64,000 bases of DNA from the NCBI GenBank assembly GCA_037721215.1, contig JBBJNV010000004.1:62001-126000 (forward strand), written 5' to 3'. The stretch comes from Gemmatimonadaceae bacterium. Its GTDB lineage: Bacteria; Gemmatimonadota; Gemmatimonadetes; Gemmatimonadales; Gemmatimonadaceae. A program made the position numbers and the translations under genes. The first letter of the stretch is position 1, and every line of letters begins with the position of its first letter. The notes beneath the pieces were generated by a model. That model ran no database searches. It was not told where the DNA came from and saw only the letters and a list, made by a program, of their open reading frames with translations. Shown here piece by piece: positions 28,665 to 36,265 of this stretch.

Positions 28665-28922
28665 GAAGTAGCAGGAAAGTCTGACGGAATTATGACAAGA
28701 TCTTAGAATCGGATCGGCGATCCCATTGGGGTTTCATTACTTGTTTCAAATCCATTTCGCGTGGTTGAGTAACAGAAAAGATCGTACGTCGCCTCCTGAC
28801 GAACGCTGCTGCTGTCAATCACTTTCCGGCACCTCGCTTCGCTTGACACTATTAGATGTGCGTTCAGCAGAACCTGAACGTTAGCCAGTCAGGGGGCGCA
28901 TGATCATCGGGGAAACGCGTTC
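28665..28922. other. Intergenic stretch left of the IS630 element
   Basis: 258 bases with no supportable ORF. It is the original 3' flank of the metallophosphoesterase gene, now displaced by the insertion. It contains a few short imperfect palindromes but no clear promoter or terminator. Confidence 0.4.
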
Positions 28923-28924
28923 TA

Positions 28925-28937
28925 GTGGACTGTAACT
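28925..28937 (+). repeat. IS630 left terminal inverted repeat
   Basis: GTGGACTGTAACT, perfect complement of 30031-30043; preceded by target-site TA. Confidence 0.9.
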
Positions 28938-30004
28938 CAATTAATGGTTGCACGGATGCGATTCGTCGGATTGCTGTAAGACCATTTAATGGGCTGGCAC
29001 GTCTTGTTATGCTGCCTGATGTAGTGCATCAGCTTCCGGCGCAGGTCGGTCGTGGATTTGAAGATGCCCCGGGCGATCATGTCGCGCTCGATCTTCGAGA
29101 ACCAGAGCTCGACCTGGTTGAGCCACGAGCTGTAGGTCGGGGTGTAGTGGATCGTCACCCGCGGGTTCTCGGCGAGCCACGCGCCGACGGCCTTGGTCTT
29201 ATGCGCCGAGAGGTTGTCGGCGATGATGTGGATTTCCTTGTGTCGGGGCTGCGTGATGATAAGTCGGCTGAGGAAGCGCAGGAACTCGGCACTCGTGTGC
29301 CGGTCGGCCGTCATCCCTTGCACATGGCCAGTCCGAATATCAAGCGCGGCGTAGAGCGAGAGGGTTCCATTGCGCTTGTACTCGAACCCGTGTCTCTCCG
29401 CTCGGCCGGGCGACAGGGGAAGAACTGGATCAAGCCGGTCCAGCGCCTGGATCGCCGACTTCTCGTCGACCGAGAACACCACAGTGTTAGTCGGCGGATC
29501 GAGGTAGAGCCCGATGACGTCGGCCGCCTTCCTCTCGAAGTCCGGATCGTCGCTCGTCATGTAGCGCTCCAAGCGGTGAGGCTTGAGCCCCGCTCGCTTC
29601 CATACCCGGGCGACGGTCATGTGGCTGACCCCTGTGGCTTTGGCCATGCGACGAGCGCTCCAGTGAGTGAACGGCGAAGGCGGCTTTTCTCTGGTGCGGG
29701 CCAGGATCTTCGCCTCGACCCTCGGATCGAGGCGGTCTGGCCGGCCGCTGCGCGGCAAGTCGCCCAGCGCGAGCAGTCCGCCCTCGACGAAACGCCGCTT
29801 CCATCGAGCGACGAAGGCGTCAGTTACCCCGTGCGTCGTGGCGATCGAGTCGTAGCTCTCGCCATCAGCCAGGGCGAGGATGACCCGGGCACGCCTGACG
29901 AGGCCGGCGGGAACGGTAGTGGAGCGCAGCATGCTCGCAAGCACCCTGCGCTCGGCGGCGGGAAGGATGATGTCCATCGCGATGGTAAACATGCCGAATC
30001 CCAC
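28937..30004 (-). CDS. IS630-family transposase
   Basis: 355 residues. N-terminal helix-turn-helix (ESYDSIATTHGVTDAFVARW, then a second helical domain with GVSHMTVARVWK), followed by the DDE catalytic core: VDEKS (first Asp), IIADNLSAHKT (second Asp) and SSWLNQVELWF (Glu). Full length with no stops, so likely active. The start may be ATG 30004 or 29977. Its stop codon lies at the edge of the left terminal repeat. Confidence 0.92.
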   Translation of the reverse strand: MGFGMFTIAMDIILPAAERRVLASMLRSTTVPAGLVRRARVILALADGESYDSIATTHGVTDAFVARWKRRFVEGGLLALGDLPRSGRPDRLDPRVEAKILARTREKPPSPFTHWSARRMAKATGVSHMTVARVWKRAGLKPHRLERYMTSDDPDFERKAADVIGLYLDPPTNTVVFSVDEKSAIQALDRLDPVLPLSPGRAERHGFEYKRNGTLSLYAALDIRTGHVQGMTADRHTSAEFLRFLSRLIITQPRHKEIHIIADNLSAHKTKAVGAWLAENPRVTIHYTPTYSSWLNQVELWFSKIERDMIARGIFKSTTDLRRKLMHYIRQHNKTCQPIKWSYSNPTNRIRATIN

Positions 30005-30030
30005 CGCAAGATCAATGCTATCATTACTTC

Positions 30031-30043
30031 AGTTACAGTCCAC
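30031..30043 (-). repeat. IS630 right terminal inverted repeat
   Basis: AGTTACAGTCCAC, perfect complement of 28925-28937; followed by target-site TA. Confidence 0.9.
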
Positions 30044-31053
30044 TAGTGGCAACTCCGACCATGCCTGTCCCAGACACGTCCGTCGGTGCTCAGGAACGCA
30101 CCCCGGTAGGCGTTGGGCCCCAGTGTAAGCAGCAACACCCCGAAATGTCCCTGAATCTGCACGATCGAATTTTTCGCGGTTGAACGGCCAAGTATACCGA
30201 AGCGCGACCGGAATCCGCGAAGGCTTGCCCCACCGGTTCCCACGAGAATCTGCTCGATCCCCCTGACGCTGTCGGCAACACCGCCCGGTGTCTGCGGCAG
30301 GAATCGTTCGTAGTGATGATCATGCCCACTCAGCACGAGATCCGCGTTACGTGCATGGAGAATGTCCCACAAACGGCGCATCGCCGGGTCGCCCTGCCGG
30401 TAGGACGAGCTGAAGAGCGGTCGATGGAAATATGCGAGGGTGCAGCCCTTTGTATCGCCTGACAGTTGCTGCCTCAGCCATGTCTCCTGAATATCGCGCT
30501 CCGCGTCACTGCCGTTGATCGCCAGCTCGCTGTTCAGGACAACTACCTGCCACTCCCCCAGGGCATAGCTGTAGTAACCTTTGCCGGCTTCCCCGGCGCG
30601 CGCTCCGAAGTAGCGGTAATAGGGCGCCCCGCGATCAGCGTACCAGTCGTGGTTTCCCATCGACGGACGAATTGCTTTCCTGATCAGCTTCGCGGTATCG
30701 CCCCAGGATGGTGTGTAACACCTCGTAAGCTGCTGATCCGAAGCCTCAGGATAGGCATGATCTCCAAGAGTGAATACCACGTTCTCGACATTTGCCGCGG
30801 AGTCCGCTCTGAGGACGCTGTCCACCAGCACCGCGGTTGCTTCGTCGCCGTCATTTCCGCAAGTCGCGATATCACCCGTTCCGATCATCAGTCGCGCCCC
30901 CGCCAGCGCCACTGCCTCAGCGGGCGAGTCTGCAGGCGGAAGCGTCCGACTCAGGCCATAGTTGCCGCCATCGCAGTTTAACAGCAGGAACGGCAGTGCA
31001 ATCCATGATGCCGAATTTCTGCGCAACACCCGACGCCTCAGGACCTCGATCAC
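30043..31053 (-). CDS. Calcineurin-like metallophosphoesterase, secreted
   Basis: 336 residues from a GTG. A hydrophobic N-terminal segment ends near LLNC, possibly a lipoprotein signal. The metallophosphoesterase fold shows TGDIATCG, TLGDHAYP (metal Asp/His), MGNHDWY (GNHD box), YFHRPLF and LSGHDHHYERF, which complete the binuclear metal site. The IS630 element lies exactly at the stop: TA is the target duplication and G is the first base of the element. The native frame also stopped there (TAG), so the protein is unchanged. Follows the Omp85-kinase gene by 58 bases and is the probable last gene of that operon. Confidence 0.88.
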   Translation of the reverse strand: MIEVLRRRVLRRNSASWIALPFLLLNCDGGNYGLSRTLPPADSPAEAVALAGARLMIGTGDIATCGNDGDEATAVLVDSVLRADSAANVENVVFTLGDHAYPEASDQQLTRCYTPSWGDTAKLIRKAIRPSMGNHDWYADRGAPYYRYFGARAGEAGKGYYSYALGEWQVVVLNSELAINGSDAERDIQETWLRQQLSGDTKGCTLAYFHRPLFSSSYRQGDPAMRRLWDILHARNADLVLSGHDHHYERFLPQTPGGVADSVRGIEQILVGTGGASLRGFRSRFGILGRSTAKNSIVQIQGHFGVLLLTLGPNAYRGAFLSTDGRVWDRHGRSCH

Positions 31054-31111
31054 GCAGGCTGTTGAATGCTCGTCAATCGTCGTGGCTTCACGTGCAGGTC
31101 AACCCAGCGCT

Positions 31112-33763
31112 TCAGAAGACAAAACCGAGATTCAGCAGCACCCGCCGCTCGCTGTTGTTCGTGAAGAGAACGTTGAGGTTCGTGCCGGGGTTGATGACTC
31201 CAACCCAGAACCCCGCGCCGTTGCCGGTATTCCATCCGCCGGCTGACTCTCCGTCCAGATAAACCCGGGCCACATCGATGAATCCCAATACCCCGACATC
31301 GAGTGGGAGTATCAATGGAAACCTCGCGATTGGCAGACGCAGCTCTGCTGCGCCGAATAGTGACGCGTCGCCAGCAAAACGTTGCCGCTCCTCGGTGCGA
31401 AGCGATCGCGATCCGCCGATGAAAGCCGCGTCGAAAAAAGGAAACTCTCCAAAGACCTTCTTGCCTCCTGCCCGGAGCGCCAGCACCGGTCGCGACAGCA
31501 CAGGCATCGTCAGATATGACATCGCTACCGCTGACATTTCCTGATACGCGGTCTGGGCGTCCCAGAAGCCCGGATACGCACCTGCAACCATCTCCGCTTT
31601 CCCCCAAACCGCCGGAAGAGAACGTGCGGTGAGCCCTCTGGATCGACCGCTGCTGCCGCTGATCGGCAGATCACGGCTATCATACTCCATCTGGAGCTGG
31701 ACACCCGCCTGGCCAAAATCCCCAAATCCGTATGGTCTCTGTTCTGAAATGAACCTGCCAGCCGTGCTGTCGGTGGACGTAAACCGGACTATCGGCCCAA
31801 TCGACAGTTCCGTTCCGGGCGCGAACGAATATCCAAGCGCGGGTCGCAGAAGCCACTGTGTCTGGCGCACATCGTAGAAGTCTCCGGGCGAATCAGGGGT
31901 GTCATTTCCGAAACCTCGAAATTCACCGACCTTGATCTGCGACATGTTTGCTTCGGCCATAGTATGCAACGACGAACTCTCGAACCGCCGGTCGCCCTCC
32001 AGCCCGACTTCGAATCCCCCGATCGCAGTCGAGTATTCCAGCTCACCCTTGAGCATGGTCGCGTATGGAACCCGGCGGAATCCGTACTGGACTCGAGATA
32101 CGCCTATCTTTGGGACCACGCCCAGACCATGGCCTGTTCTCACGCCAACAACCGGCGTGATGGAAGCGCCACGATCGCGCTGCGGTGGCACCAGCTCACC
32201 ATAGGCGAAAACCCAAGGACGCCGATTGAAGTAGTCGTTCAGAGCTGCGGTCGGACTTGCTCTTTCACCAGCCGTGTCAGGGGCATATTTGATGTCGGCC
32301 ACTGCACCCATGTCGTACATTCTCGTCGGATTTTTCTTTCCTCCAACGATCGATATATCGGTAAGCCAGTTGGTCCCGTTGCCTCCGACAATTCTGACCG
32401 GGATGCTGCGTGCAACGTTGCCGTTGACAGCTGCCCGGTCGTCGCCCCCGTGGAGGTAGATTCTTATTTCGGAGGTCTCACCAGGCTCGAAGTGACGCAC
32501 GAACCAGGGAGCCCTGGTTTCCGACTGAATCCGGACAGTCACACCGCCGTTTGCCGCTCGCACGACTGTCGCCCGGTCGTCCTTGTCGGTTGCATGGATA
32601 TCGCTGGTAGCCCACAGACTTTCGTAGTACCGGCGAGCTACCTCAGGCAGTTGATCGCGGCGCGCCCTGAGTGTATTGCCGAGATCGGGGGACAGCGCCG
32701 CATGCTCCCGCGGCATGGCTCGAATTGCCTCGGTTATTACAGGATTGCCTACTCTTCGAACCACACTCGCCGCAACCGAGTCCCATGCGCGTCTGTCGAG
32801 GCCAGCCAGAAGGCGGCGATCAAATTCGATCGCATTATCGAAAACAGCGGTCGGACTGGAAAGTTCACTGCGAAATTTTATGAGACTCGGCACAGCCCGC
32901 CGCGCGATATCCAGCAGGAATCCGTCGTACGAGACAAACACCTTGTCCCGATCGCGCGGAATGGGCAGCCACCGTGAACCCGCGCCTTTTTTCGCGCGTG
33001 CCCATCTCCACTGGTCGGGATGACGGTCATTGTCGCCCAGAAGGAGATCCGCAAGTCTCGCCGTGAGCAAAGCACGGCCATCCACCTGATCGTCGGGATC
33101 CTGATTAATGCGCTTGAGCAATTCCTCACTGTCGATGATGTCGACGGCGCCGCCGAATTCTCCACTTCTGTCCGGATCCTGCGGATACGCTTCGATAGTG
33201 CCCAGCACACCTGCAAAGTTTTTCCTGAATTCTCCCAATAGAGGATCGTCTGGCATCACGACGAGTCGGGGTACAGGATGAAGCACGCCCAAGGCCCTGA
33301 GAATTGGCGGAGCAATGACAGCCGCCGAGGGATGCGAGGCGCTGCCCTGGTCACGATAAACGTCCCAGATAACGGTGCCTTCATACTGGCGAGGCAGACG
33401 GCCAAAAAATGCCTTGAATACCGGCCTGAACACGAATTCGGAACTGTCAGCCGCTCCAAATCGCAGGGACCGGGTCTGCATGCCGCCGCCTTCCTTCAGC
33501 GGTGTAAGTCCGCCGGCAAAGCCCCGGAGATCCAGAACCGGCACCCGGATTGGCTCCCCCCACTGGTCGCGATAGTTGTCTCCCAGGAGGTAGCGATAGC
33601 TACCACCGGCGGCATACATGTCACTCGCCACTATGGTCACGGTATCCCTGCCCAGGATCGCCGGGGCAGGTTGCCGCTGGGAATGCAGGTGCCGCGGCAG
33701 AATGGCCATCAGGGTCAGCAGGATGCCACCGGGCAACCACCGCGAGCCGCGAAAACCGATCAT
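31112..33763 (-). CDS. Omp85/D15-type outer-membrane protein with HipA/FAM20-like kinase motif
   Basis: 883 residues with a hydrophobic N-terminal signal. Residues about 80-300 carry kinase-like elements: GGGMQTRSLRF and EFVFRPVFK (nucleotide-binding, Lys117), then LLGDNDRHPDQW (catalytic-loop Asp246 in DRH) and IPRDRDKVF (metal Asp271/273). These resemble HipA, FAM20 and CotH-type kinases. Residues about 560-883 form a D15/Omp85 barrel with repeating strands and the terminal aromatic LGFVF signature. The kinase would face the periplasm or the cell surface. It overlaps the upstream lipoprotein gene by 4 bases (ATGA). Related Bacteroidota proteins, from memory, carry metallophosphoesterase, this domain and a barrel together; here the phosphoesterase is a separate downstream gene. 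Activity is inferred only. Confidence 0.75.
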   Translation of the reverse strand: MIGFRGSRWLPGGILLTLMAILPRHLHSQRQPAPAILGRDTVTIVASDMYAAGGSYRYLLGDNYRDQWGEPIRVPVLDLRGFAGGLTPLKEGGGMQTRSLRFGAADSSEFVFRPVFKAFFGRLPRQYEGTVIWDVYRDQGSASHPSAAVIAPPILRALGVLHPVPRLVVMPDDPLLGEFRKNFAGVLGTIEAYPQDPDRSGEFGGAVDIIDSEELLKRINQDPDDQVDGRALLTARLADLLLGDNDRHPDQWRWARAKKGAGSRWLPIPRDRDKVFVSYDGFLLDIARRAVPSLIKFRSELSSPTAVFDNAIEFDRRLLAGLDRRAWDSVAASVVRRVGNPVITEAIRAMPREHAALSPDLGNTLRARRDQLPEVARRYYESLWATSDIHATDKDDRATVVRAANGGVTVRIQSETRAPWFVRHFEPGETSEIRIYLHGGDDRAAVNGNVARSIPVRIVGGNGTNWLTDISIVGGKKNPTRMYDMGAVADIKYAPDTAGERASPTAALNDYFNRRPWVFAYGELVPPQRDRGASITPVVGVRTGHGLGVVPKIGVSRVQYGFRRVPYATMLKGELEYSTAIGGFEVGLEGDRRFESSSLHTMAEANMSQIKVGEFRGFGNDTPDSPGDFYDVRQTQWLLRPALGYSFAPGTELSIGPIVRFTSTDSTAGRFISEQRPYGFGDFGQAGVQLQMEYDSRDLPISGSSGRSRGLTARSLPAVWGKAEMVAGAYPGFWDAQTAYQEMSAVAMSYLTMPVLSRPVLALRAGGKKVFGEFPFFDAAFIGGSRSLRTEERQRFAGDASLFGAAELRLPIARFPLILPLDVGVLGFIDVARVYLDGESAGGWNTGNGAGFWVGVINPGTNLNVLFTNNSERRVLLNLGFVF

Positions 33764-34689
33764 TGGGAAGAGGGCGCCGCCGTGCCAATCGGCCAGCGGT
33801 AAAGGGTTATCATGGCGGCGCCTTTCGTTGCTTCATCGGCGATAGCAATGATGCTGTCGCGGCTCACAGCGACGCCTTCCGCCTGCGGGTGCCGGCCCGG
33901 AATTGTCATTGAGCGCACCAACTCACCGGTTGGAGTGACCTCGATGAGCGCCTGTTCCGGCCCGGCGATCAACACGTAATTACCCGTCACGGGGTCGACA
34001 GCAATGTCGGTGGGGTGAAGGCGCTTCCAATCATTTGGTCCAATCACGCGCTCGAGCGGAATAGTGAGCATGGACATCTGCGGCGATGCCGATGCTCCGA
34101 GGTGATAGCGGTAGATCACGAGCTGGTCGCGCAGCTTCTTCGTTTCGACATTCTTGCACGGAAGGAGCAGGACCGAGCTGCGCGGGTCGAAGGCCAGTCC
34201 CTCGAACTCGCATTCGCGGCCCAGACGGGTATCGTGCAGCGTCGCGCGCACTGTTGCGCCGTCGGCTCCCTCCTTGAACTGGTAAAGCTTGCCGTTGCTG
34301 GTGAGGAGGTACATCGAGTTCTGTGCAACCGTAATCGCCTCGAAATCTCCGCGCGTGCCGTGTTTTTCCCCGACGGAGAACCGCTTCACAACGATACCGC
34401 GGCGGGGATTGATCACGAACACCACAGCTCGCTGGTCGTTGTGCGCGAGCAACTGCCCATTTGCGGTAAGGGCGAGTCCGGAGATCTCCCGCAGCTCGCG
34501 AGGGAGGATCCACATGGCCAGCGGTGCGCCCGGTGCCAGGTCGCGCGCCGCCAGCCGGCGCGCCAGCTGAGTCTCCCGGTTGGCGAGCATTGCCGCGTCG
34601 GCCGAAGACACCTTTCTGTCATCCTTTCTGCAGCCCGCAACGGACATCAAAAGTCCCAGCGAAACTGCGACTACCTGCGCCAGCGTCAT
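33760..34689 (-). CDS. SdiA-regulated/YjiK-type beta-propeller lipoprotein
   Basis: 309 residues, lipobox VAGC (Cys20). The propeller region has the SdiA-regulated family pattern: REISGLALTANGQLLAHND, GDFEAITVAQNSMYLLTSNG, CEFEGLAFDPRSSVLLLPC, HPTDIAVDPVTGNYVLIAG and AEGVAVSRDSIIAIADE. The family is related to phytase-like propellers, but substrate is unknown. Starts inside the stop of DUF4956 (ATGA) and ends inside the start of the Omp85-kinase gene (ATGA). Confidence 0.82.
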   Translation of the reverse strand: MTLAQVVAVSLGLLMSVAGCRKDDRKVSSADAAMLANRETQLARRLAARDLAPGAPLAMWILPRELREISGLALTANGQLLAHNDQRAVVFVINPRRGIVVKRFSVGEKHGTRGDFEAITVAQNSMYLLTSNGKLYQFKEGADGATVRATLHDTRLGRECEFEGLAFDPRSSVLLLPCKNVETKKLRDQLVIYRYHLGASASPQMSMLTIPLERVIGPNDWKRLHPTDIAVDPVTGNYVLIAGPEQALIEVTPTGELVRSMTIPGRHPQAEGVAVSRDSIIAIADEATKGAAMITLYRWPIGTAAPSSQ

Positions 34690-35795
34690 GACGAAATACC
34701 GACCTCGTCGCCAACGCCGTCGCGGCTTTCGAGATCGACTGTCGCGATCCGGTCTCCTGCCCCATCACGGATGGCCGTGAGGAGCTCATCACGGGTCGCG
34801 GATTTTTTCAGGCGCAACAGGTAATAGATCTCAGACGGCTTGCCGATGTGCTCCTCGATTTCATCGAGTTTCCAGCGTCTCGTCTTCTCCCCCAGGACGC
34901 TTTCCGCCAGCTGCTGCGCTTCCGTCACCTTATCGGTCGTAATCGTAAGAACGGCATCGAAGCGGGGGTTCTTCTTGCGAGTGCCGAGTACGTCGCTAAC
35001 GCGTTCGAACCGCTCGGCCAGCGCGTCCGCGGTTTGCGGTGTCAGCGACAGCACGAGATCGCGATCCGGCACAGCGTCGTGATCCTCATTGTTCACGAGA
35101 CTGTTCAGCGGTCCCGCCCATCGCGACGCCGCTGTCGGCGTAAGAACATTCCGTCCGTAATCGTATCGCCATGTAAAAAGCAGCACAAAATTGAAGACGA
35201 CCGTCAGAGCGGCACCGACCGCCAGCGTTTGTACTCCCGCCGCGAAGCCGACGGCAATCGCAAGAAAGATGAAGACGACATCCCGCGTGTCCCGCAGATT
35301 GGTGCGGAATCGCACCGCCGCCACGACGCCGGCAAGGCTGAATGCCAGTGCGAGGCTGTCCCTCACGATCAGCACGATTCCAGCGACGACAAGCGGAAGG
35401 ATGATCAGCGTCTGAACGACGGCCTGGCTGTGACCCGCAATCTGCCGCGCCGACATGTATACCCACGACACGGGCAGCATCAGGAGGATCGTGCCGATGA
35501 GGATGAGCGTCGTCGTTATCAGCAACTCGCCGAGGGAACCGACACCGAAGATCGAGACGACGGTGGCCGCGGGACTGGGGGTCGGCGCGGGATTGAGACC
35601 GTCCTGCAGAATGAAGGGGCTGGAGGCTGTGGACGTCTGGGTGTCGAGGCCCTTGCCGATCAGCAGCCGGTCACTCTCCGGCAGGACGTACGACAGCCCA
35701 AAAAGCAATGCGGCGAGAACGGCGTAATAGGCCAGCAAACGTCGCATCGGACGATCCGAACCCATCGCCAGAAAGTCGATGATCCGATTTAGCAA
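34686..35795 (-). CDS. DUF4956 integral membrane protein
   Basis: 369 residues from a TTG. Several transmembrane helices in the first 230 residues, with the DUF4956 core GVVAAVRFRTNLRDTRDVVF and the following hydrophobic FLAIAVGFAAG. A soluble, ferredoxin-like domain of about 130 residues follows. In other bacteria DUF4956 genes lie beside VTC (polyphosphate polymerase-like) and CotH genes; here the partners are a propeller lipoprotein and a kinase-motif barrel. First gene of the operon. Confidence 0.85.
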   Translation of the reverse strand: MLNRIIDFLAMGSDRPMRRLLAYYAVLAALLFGLSYVLPESDRLLIGKGLDTQTSTASSPFILQDGLNPAPTPSPAATVVSIFGVGSLGELLITTTLILIGTILLMLPVSWVYMSARQIAGHSQAVVQTLIILPLVVAGIVLIVRDSLALAFSLAGVVAAVRFRTNLRDTRDVVFIFLAIAVGFAAGVQTLAVGAALTVVFNFVLLFTWRYDYGRNVLTPTAASRWAGPLNSLVNNEDHDAVPDRDLVLSLTPQTADALAERFERVSDVLGTRKKNPRFDAVLTITTDKVTEAQQLAESVLGEKTRRWKLDEIEEHIGKPSEIYYLLRLKKSATRDELLTAIRDGAGDRIATVDLESRDGVGDEVGISS

Positions 35796-35935: not shown

Positions 35936-36265
35936 TCAGGTTTCCCTCGACCGACGCTCGGCTTCATCGTCGAGTATCTGCCTCAGCGTTGCGAGCACCG
36001 GATGATCAGCGGTGTATTCCCGGCCGTACGCCAGATTGAAACGATAATCAGGGAACCGGTGATGCACGGCCATTGCCATGAGTCAAAGGCGCCACGTGTG
36101 ATCGGCAACGCTTTCCTGTCGCCCGGCTGAAGTCCATCCGTTGCGAGCAGCCGTTTTCAATCCTTCCGCTGCCCGCAGGAACGCGAGAAGGCCGCCGATA
36201 TCACCGGCCGACACCGGCGAAACCGAGTCACCCGCCGGGGCATTCGTGTCAGATGCGTCGTTCAC
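35936..36265 (-). pseudogene. Truncated HD-domain hydrolase (YfbR-like)
   Basis: An N-terminal part, LLAFLRAAEGLKTAARNGW...ESVADHTWRL, clearly matches HD-domain hydrolases. It ends at an in-frame TGA (36083-36085). The same frame then continues with LMAMAVHHRFPDYRFNLAYGREYTADHPVLATLRQ, which is the family C-terminus joined straight after the first helices. About 110 residues, including the HD pair, are gone. So there is an internal in-frame deletion plus a stop codon. The GTG start overlaps the methyltransferase stop (GTGA), so the lost gene was coupled to it. Confidence 0.75.

Follow-up and report, generated by a model that had tools for sequence, protein, structure and literature searches.

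A conserved Gemmatimonadaceae operon encoding a predicted outer-membrane kinase-phosphatase pair, with a recurrent genomic link to polyphosphate genes in its relatives

We analyzed a 64,000-nucleotide stretch of the genome of a Gemmatimonadaceae bacterium (GenBank assembly GCA_037721215.1, contig JBBJNV010000004.1, positions 62,001 to 126,000 of the forward strand), here called the window. Within it lie four consecutive open reading frames on the minus strand, which form the operon described here (positions are those of the window):

34686-35795, minus strand: DUF4956 gene, the first of the operon; TTG start, 369 amino acids
33760-34689, minus strand: SdiA-regulated/YjiK-type lipoprotein gene; 309 amino acids
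31112-33763, minus strand: kinase-motif/Omp85 gene; 883 amino acids, signal peptide
30043-31053, minus strand: metallophosphoesterase gene; GTG start, 336 amino acids

The open reading frames and their Pfam and NCBIfam matches confirmed the four-gene operon that had been proposed from the sequence (hereafter the original prediction). The Pfam scores were all above cut-off (DUF4956, PF16316, 35.4 bits with a gathering score of 30.6; SdiA-regulated, PF06977, 29.1 with 21; Metallophos, PF00149, 42.8 with 21.5), and the 883-residue kinase/Omp85 protein had no Pfam match. The original prediction had three genes overlapping by ATGA and the metallophosphoesterase following 58 bases later on the same strand; a 4-base ATGA overlap was found at each of the DUF4956/SdiA and SdiA/kinase junctions, and the third junction is the predicted gap of 58 bases (31054-31111). 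No terminator-like sites were detected on the minus strand between the operon genes, predicted promoters and terminators were no more numerous than in shuffled sequences, and an Rfam scan of the window gave no matches.

A whole-genome search identified the kinase/Omp85 protein in 30/61 relatives. The order DUF4956, SdiA-regulated, kinase/Omp85, phosphoesterase was kept in most loci of the same genus and recurred in L046 and L048, which belong to a different family of the same order; the lack of a conserved neighbourhood, which would have counted against the original prediction, thus does not apply. The first junction of the conserved loci shows the 4-base overlap, as the second often does; L046 and L048 have it between the kinase and phosphoesterase genes as well. 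The arrangement goes far beyond chance, because the same order recurs in most genomes of the genus and in another family, often with the same overlaps.

The third gene encodes a long N-terminal domain with the following features:

32612-33646, minus strand: kinase-type domain, residues ~40-384 of 883 (AlphaFold2 model, Foldseek and PDB profile match)
33413-33415, minus strand: codon of K117, an invariant lysine and the predicted contact for the phosphates of the donor
33008-33037, minus strand: catalytic-loop motif GDNDRHPDQW, residues 243-252, with D246 as the predicted catalytic Asp
32945-32953, minus strand: predicted metal-binding motif D271-R-D273, equivalent to DFG/DxD

Because barrel matches dominated the initial fold search with the full-length protein, the N-terminal part was modelled separately. 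This AlphaFold2 model of residues 30-480, built with the alignment of relatives, had a mean predicted local distance difference test score (pLDDT) of 94.5. Foldseek analysis of the kinase domain against the PDB returned CtkA (E = 6e-6), HipA (1.4e-5), CotH (5.1e-5) and Fam20C (6.0e-5 to 8.0e-5), with WaaP and PI4KII also among the fold matches; the probability was 1.00 for CtkA, HipA, PI4KII, CotH and Fam20C, over an E range of 6e-6 to 8e-5. By pLDDT and Foldseek, the predicted model has the bilobal kinase fold. The sequence profile alone, searched against the PDB, matched CtkA (E = 0.0043), with GDwDRH aligned to GNFDRH of CtkA. Among 103 relatives, R113, K117, D239, D246, R247, D271, D273 and R368 were invariant (103/103) and Q251 was present in 101/103; the conservation of D246, R247 and QW is partly fixed because these positions were in the motif ([GN]D[WNF]DR[HGD]xxQW) by which loci L064-L143 were fetched, and R113, K117, E191, D271 and D273 lie outside that motif. 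We consider it highly probable that the fold is of kinase type and the catalytic set complete, and the domain is a putative kinase.

Assignment of the domain to a family was more limited. No Pfam family covered it in any of the 103 members, and CotH (PF08757) gave a best E value of 0.1 without reaching its gathering score, so the domain was treated as CotH-like and not filed as CotH. The Asn that follows the catalytic Asp is usually a metal ligand in kinases. Because Gln (Q251) stands in its place, the domain is likened to the HipA, CotH and Fam20-type families and not filed within them. The same substitution means that the chemistry may differ, and the fold could serve another kind of transfer, such as AMPylation, glutamylation or phosphorylation of a lipid or sugar, as with SelO, SidJ, WaaP or PI4K folds; lipid A or an envelope polymer might, for example, be modified and then trimmed by the phosphoesterase. 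PI4KII and WaaP are indeed among the fold matches; however, the nearest matches are the protein kinases CtkA, HipA, CotH and Fam20C, and we regard this alternative as improbable. A second, diverged kinase/Omp85 copy (36% identity) was observed on contig C20 of the same genome (L032:6184-10971), followed by a phosphoesterase of the second PF00149 subfamily described below and a 271-residue protein without a Pfam match.

The remainder of the third protein comprises two further domains:

32354-32611, minus strand: conserved beta-rich linker domain, residues ~385-470 (AlphaFold2 strands and conserved motif)
31115-32176, minus strand: Omp85-type beta-barrel, residues ~530-883 (Foldseek TamA/BamA; NCBIfam Omp85_fam)

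The full-length model matched TamA and BamA barrels in Foldseek with E values down to 1.1e-7, and NCBIfam Omp85_fam matched residues 724-854 (1.5e-15, below the curated cut-off). The linker carries the conserved motif EIRxYxxGGxDxxxVxG...VRIIGGxG. Neither a sequence match nor a fold match to POTRA was found in the protein; the kinase domain and beta linker occupy its place. POTRA domains are usual in Omp85 proteins and do not define them, and classes without them have been described (PMC4104836). From Omp85 topology, the kinase domain is predicted to face the periplasm at the outer membrane. The barrel could instead act like that of a type Vd autotransporter and display kinase and phosphatase outside the cell, the polyphosphate link described below being incidental. 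The one-chain enzyme-barrel architecture resembles that of PlpD, and surface display was considered for the 'Metallo' Omp85 class by Heinz and Lithgow (PMC4104836); however, the enzyme domain of PlpD has been shown experimentally to stay in the periplasm (PMC11116518), and linkage to the polyphosphate-making enzyme PPK1 arises in many separate clades, which leaves surface display quite improbable.

Both the phosphoesterase and the SdiA-regulated protein carry lipoboxes (LLNC and VAGC, respectively). The phosphoesterase is of the calcineurin/purple-acid-phosphatase-like type and keeps all of the metal-ligand motifs (GD, GDxxY, GNH, H and GHxH), with D61, D98, Y101, N134, H135, H210, H244 and H246 invariant in 14 relatives. 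The SdiA-regulated protein profile matched the YjiK structure 3qqz (E = 1.7e-8), a beta-propeller, and the acidic residues E68, D85, D115, E117, E163, E271 and E286 of the propeller were invariant in 18 relatives. A weak Phytase-like match to the propeller was also detected (E = 1.1e-4, below cut-off).

The Bacteroidota relatives carry phosphoesterase, kinase domain and barrel on a single chain of ~1200-1300 amino acids, and the propeller gene often lies just upstream. This three-domain fusion was identified in 42/103 relatives, nearly all of them Bacteroidota, and the Bacteroidota protein was present at full length in about a third of 118 sampled genomes. Fusion in one polypeptide argues that kinase and phosphatase are a working pair. 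Elsewhere, most lineages have a phosphoesterase of a second, distinct PF00149 subfamily in the neighbouring or fused position, and a kinase fold kept beside changing phosphatases likewise suggests a functional pair. The genes could form an ordinary conserved operon without joint function, their neighbourhood being a habit of the lineage; composition does vary, and DUF4956 and the phosphoesterase can be missing. Set against the phosphoesterase-kinase-barrel fusion, the ATGA coupling and the swapping of phosphoesterase subfamilies at the same place, this explanation is very improbable. Two further neighbours of the fused gene were observed. An HD-PycTM protein (HD plus Pycsar-effector transmembrane domain) frequently adjoins the fused gene or its PPK1 in Bacteroidota and Ignavibacteria (for example L088:6536-7729, and about 40 further loci). 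In Pontibacter and Rufibacter (L095, L097, L098, L105, L115 and L118) a DUF6268-like protein of about 350 amino acids directly follows the fused gene; the representative tested, L131, scored slightly under cut-off.

The DUF4956 protein has hydropathy peaks at residues ~19-39, 75-116, 119-161 and 170-210 and is predicted from its sequence to be an inner-membrane protein with several transmembrane segments followed by a C-terminal cytosolic domain. The original prediction placed DUF4956 beside CotH and polyphosphate-polymerase genes, which holds for Gram-positives (PMC7112168). In relatives' loci without the Omp85 kinase, DUF4956 also adjoins PPK1. We read six such loci from Gemmatimonadota, which parallel this Gram-positive gene set. 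Five, L169-L173, combine DUF4956, a secreted kinase-motif protein and PPK1; in four all genes are on one strand, and in L172 PPK1 is convergent. The sixth (L168:3457-6378, minus strand) encodes a fusion of 973 residues that joins an N-terminal DUF4956 domain to a full PPK1; its neighbours are a CHAD-CYTH protein and another PPK1. The secreted protein has GN(T/N)DxS...HN and PxDxDF-like motifs. It was not accepted as a proven kinase (CotH E = 0.027, below cut-off; no PDB match; hhalign P = 0.19); both motifs align despite this P value, and the protein is CotH-like by motif only. A DUF4956 homologue has been annotated as MgtC-like plus ACT (PMC12345266). Profile-profile comparison of DUF4956 with MgtC (PF02308) in hhalign was not significant (P = 0.09), the DUF4956 protein of L169 matched MgtC with E = 0.015, and one stretch each in two genomes (G022:C37:28932-29375 and G045:C148:8660-9154) was matched by both profiles, a hint that the two families may be related.

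The recurrent genomic link of the kinase/Omp85 genes to PPK1 and the exopolyphosphatase Ppx, seen among relatives from several bacterial phyla and overlooked by the original prediction, is the strongest clue to function. Within the same genus, Ppx/GppA lies directly downstream of the operon and is followed by a convergent PPK1; in another family, the gene immediately upstream of kinase/Omp85 encodes a PPK1 whose N-terminus weakly resembles CYTH. PPK1 was within 10 kb of the kinase/Omp85 gene in about 12/26 relatives with both genes, where ~0.16 were expected by chance (the linkage calculation of this set ran with n = 27 and 13 pairs), and within 15 kb in 12/39 Bacteroidota genomes (~0.4 expected). 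One genome (G156) has two kinase/Omp85 copies, each near its own PPK1. On the kinase-domain tree the linkage changes state 12 times, so it is not a single inherited accident. At L049, L050, L054, L169 and other loci, PPK1 is 1050-1150 residues long because of an N-terminal stretch weakly matching CYTH (best E = 0.00044, below cut-off).

The polyphosphate link also bears on the main rival explanation, phosphate scavenging. Here the phosphoesterase and the phytase-like propeller would free phosphate from organic phosphates at the surface, the barrel would pass it inwards and PPK1 would store it; the kinase fold would be a binding domain or would work in reverse, and the genes would be clustered by a shared phosphate-starvation response. 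The purple-acid-phosphatase type of the phosphoesterase, the weak Phytase-like match, the linkage to PPK1 and Ppx, and the PAP2 phosphatase that often lies next to the Ignavibacteria copies all fit this explanation. However, the K/D/DxD set in 103/103 relatives is unexpected for a mere binding domain, and the recurrent neighbours included no recognisable phosphate transporter or Pho genes. We consider scavenging rather unlikely.

Our preferred reading, to which we give a probability of about 0.5, is an outer-membrane-anchored periplasmic kinase/phosphatase pair that acts on an envelope substrate and is coupled through DUF4956 to polyphosphate turnover, that is, a two-membrane phosphorylation system. 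Through its Omp85 barrel, the third protein would present a kinase domain of the HipA/CotH/Fam20 type at the periplasmic face of the outer membrane. The neighbouring lipoprotein phosphoesterase would counteract it, and a substrate in the periplasm or outer membrane, whether protein, lipid or glycan, could gain and lose phosphate on the spot. The lipoprotein with the YjiK-like propeller may be an accessory that binds metal or substrate, and DUF4956 would be the inner-membrane partner linking the envelope activity to cytoplasmic polyphosphate turnover by PPK1 and Ppx. We infer the periplasmic location, the catalytic activity, the opposing roles and the metabolic coupling from these combined observations. 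ATP is generally taken to be absent from the periplasm. A more specific proposal is that PPK1 or VTC together with DUF4956 pushes polyphosphate over the inner membrane. Outside the cytoplasm, a kinase that is CotH-like, secreted or, as here, anchored by a barrel would then use polyphosphate instead of ATP on envelope targets, and the phosphoesterase would remove the modification or shorten the chain; attractive as this extension is, we hold it to be unlikely on present evidence.

Several observations weigh against the coupled kinase/phosphatase pair. The resemblance to kinases is remote and at the level of fold, with template modelling scores (TM-scores) to the targets of ~0.3-0.5, and the metal-ligand Asn is retained in only 2/103 relatives, with Gln in the other 101/103. 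Some relatives lack a nearby phosphoesterase, which is mostly missing in Ignavibacteria. DUF4956 is missing from most Bacteroidota carriers of the fused protein and is for this reason taken as a partner; on this point the original prediction, which included it in an outer-membrane/periplasmic kinase-phosphatase system, did not stand as far as a core role is concerned. That proposal is supported in the conserved operon, the kinase-type fold, the catalytic residues, the Omp85 barrel, the lipoboxes and the Bacteroidota fusion; kinase and phosphatase may, as it suggested, share a target. Linkage counts are phylogenetically non-independent, so that simple p-values overstate independence, and nine Bacteroidota linkage cases share one spacing of ~11-14 kb. 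PPK1 was present in 39/41 carriers and 70/77 non-carriers (p = 0.49); co-occurrence was accordingly rejected as evidence, leaving only linkage as informative. Many relatives, this genome included, have no PPK1 nearby: a polyphosphate-making gene beside the DUF4956 or kinase genes is found in many relatives and not here, where Ppx and PPK1 adjoin each other on contig C27, away from the operon.

The operon is bordered downstream by a mobile element:

28922-30046, minus strand: IS630-type insertion, with its DDE_3 transposase at 28937-30004

The 36-base inverted repeats (28922-28957 and 30011-30046) are 83% identical and have CTAG ends. The phosphoesterase stop codon TAG sits inside the terminal CTAG, so that the element ends exactly at the stop codon; the phosphoesterase gene is judged intact because its C-terminus equals that of relatives. 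The IS630 element was rejected as a component of the system, being a separate element that ends at that codon. Just upstream of the operon (35938-36262, minus strand) is a remnant of an HD-domain phosphohydrolase-like gene that looks like a pseudogene: by eye, a first half reaching ...VADHTWRL is followed by a stop codon and a C-terminal tail, the middle being lost.

An extracytoplasmic kinase fold, a membrane protein and a polyphosphate polymerase come together at this locus and its relatives, in forms that can replace one another, and this combination offers a testable answer to how a periplasmic kinase could be fed. A likely activity is also suggested for a widespread Bacteroidota protein known only as phosphoesterase-Omp85, and DUF4956 gains a lead to its function. 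The kinase domain, the split operon and the polyphosphate link are undescribed in the open-access literature that we found, and may have been noticed earlier elsewhere.

The kinase domain shares its predicted fold and the K, GD.D and D.D catalytic positions with the atypical kinases CtkA, HipA, CotH and Fam20C, at an identity of only 8-15% in the fold alignments. To our knowledge, no kinase of these types has been described on an Omp85 barrel. The predicted beta-propeller matches that of E. coli YjiK (3qqz) in the SdiA-regulated family, here as a lipoprotein in an operon with a kinase; we know of no established function for YjiK. The 'Metallo' Omp85 subfamily (PMC4104836) likewise has PF00149 and an Omp85 barrel, corresponding to the two ends of the Bacteroidota relatives. 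In that work PF00149 was taken for a metalloprotease and no kinase was mentioned, whereas we find a kinase-type domain of ~400 residues, unannotated in Pfam, between the two; the window encodes the phosphoesterase as a lipoprotein of its own, in contrast to the one-chain form of 42 relatives. PlpD, a patatin-Omp85 protein (PMC11116518), similarly joins a periplasm-facing enzyme domain to an Omp85 barrel, but is a lipase with POTRA and no phosphatase partner, where the present protein has a kinase domain. The same three types of ingredient, namely DUF4956, a kinase of this fold class acting outside the cytoplasm and a polyphosphate-making enzyme, occur in Gram-positive Pel loci as an accessory set of CotH, polyphosphate polymerase (VTC) and DUF4956 (PMC7112168, PMC12345266). 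The present system differs in several ways: PPK1 takes the role of the polymerase, the kinase is attached to an outer-membrane barrel, and there are two additional proteins, a phosphoesterase and a propeller lipoprotein; Pel genes were not noticed. Streptococcus intermedius shows altered levels of the Pel polysaccharide and altered aggregation when either the CotH-type gene or the DUF4956-type (MgtC/ACT-type) membrane gene is deleted (PMC12345266). That study did not find its gene trio outside Pel loci, whereas an analogous combination is found here outside any Pel locus.

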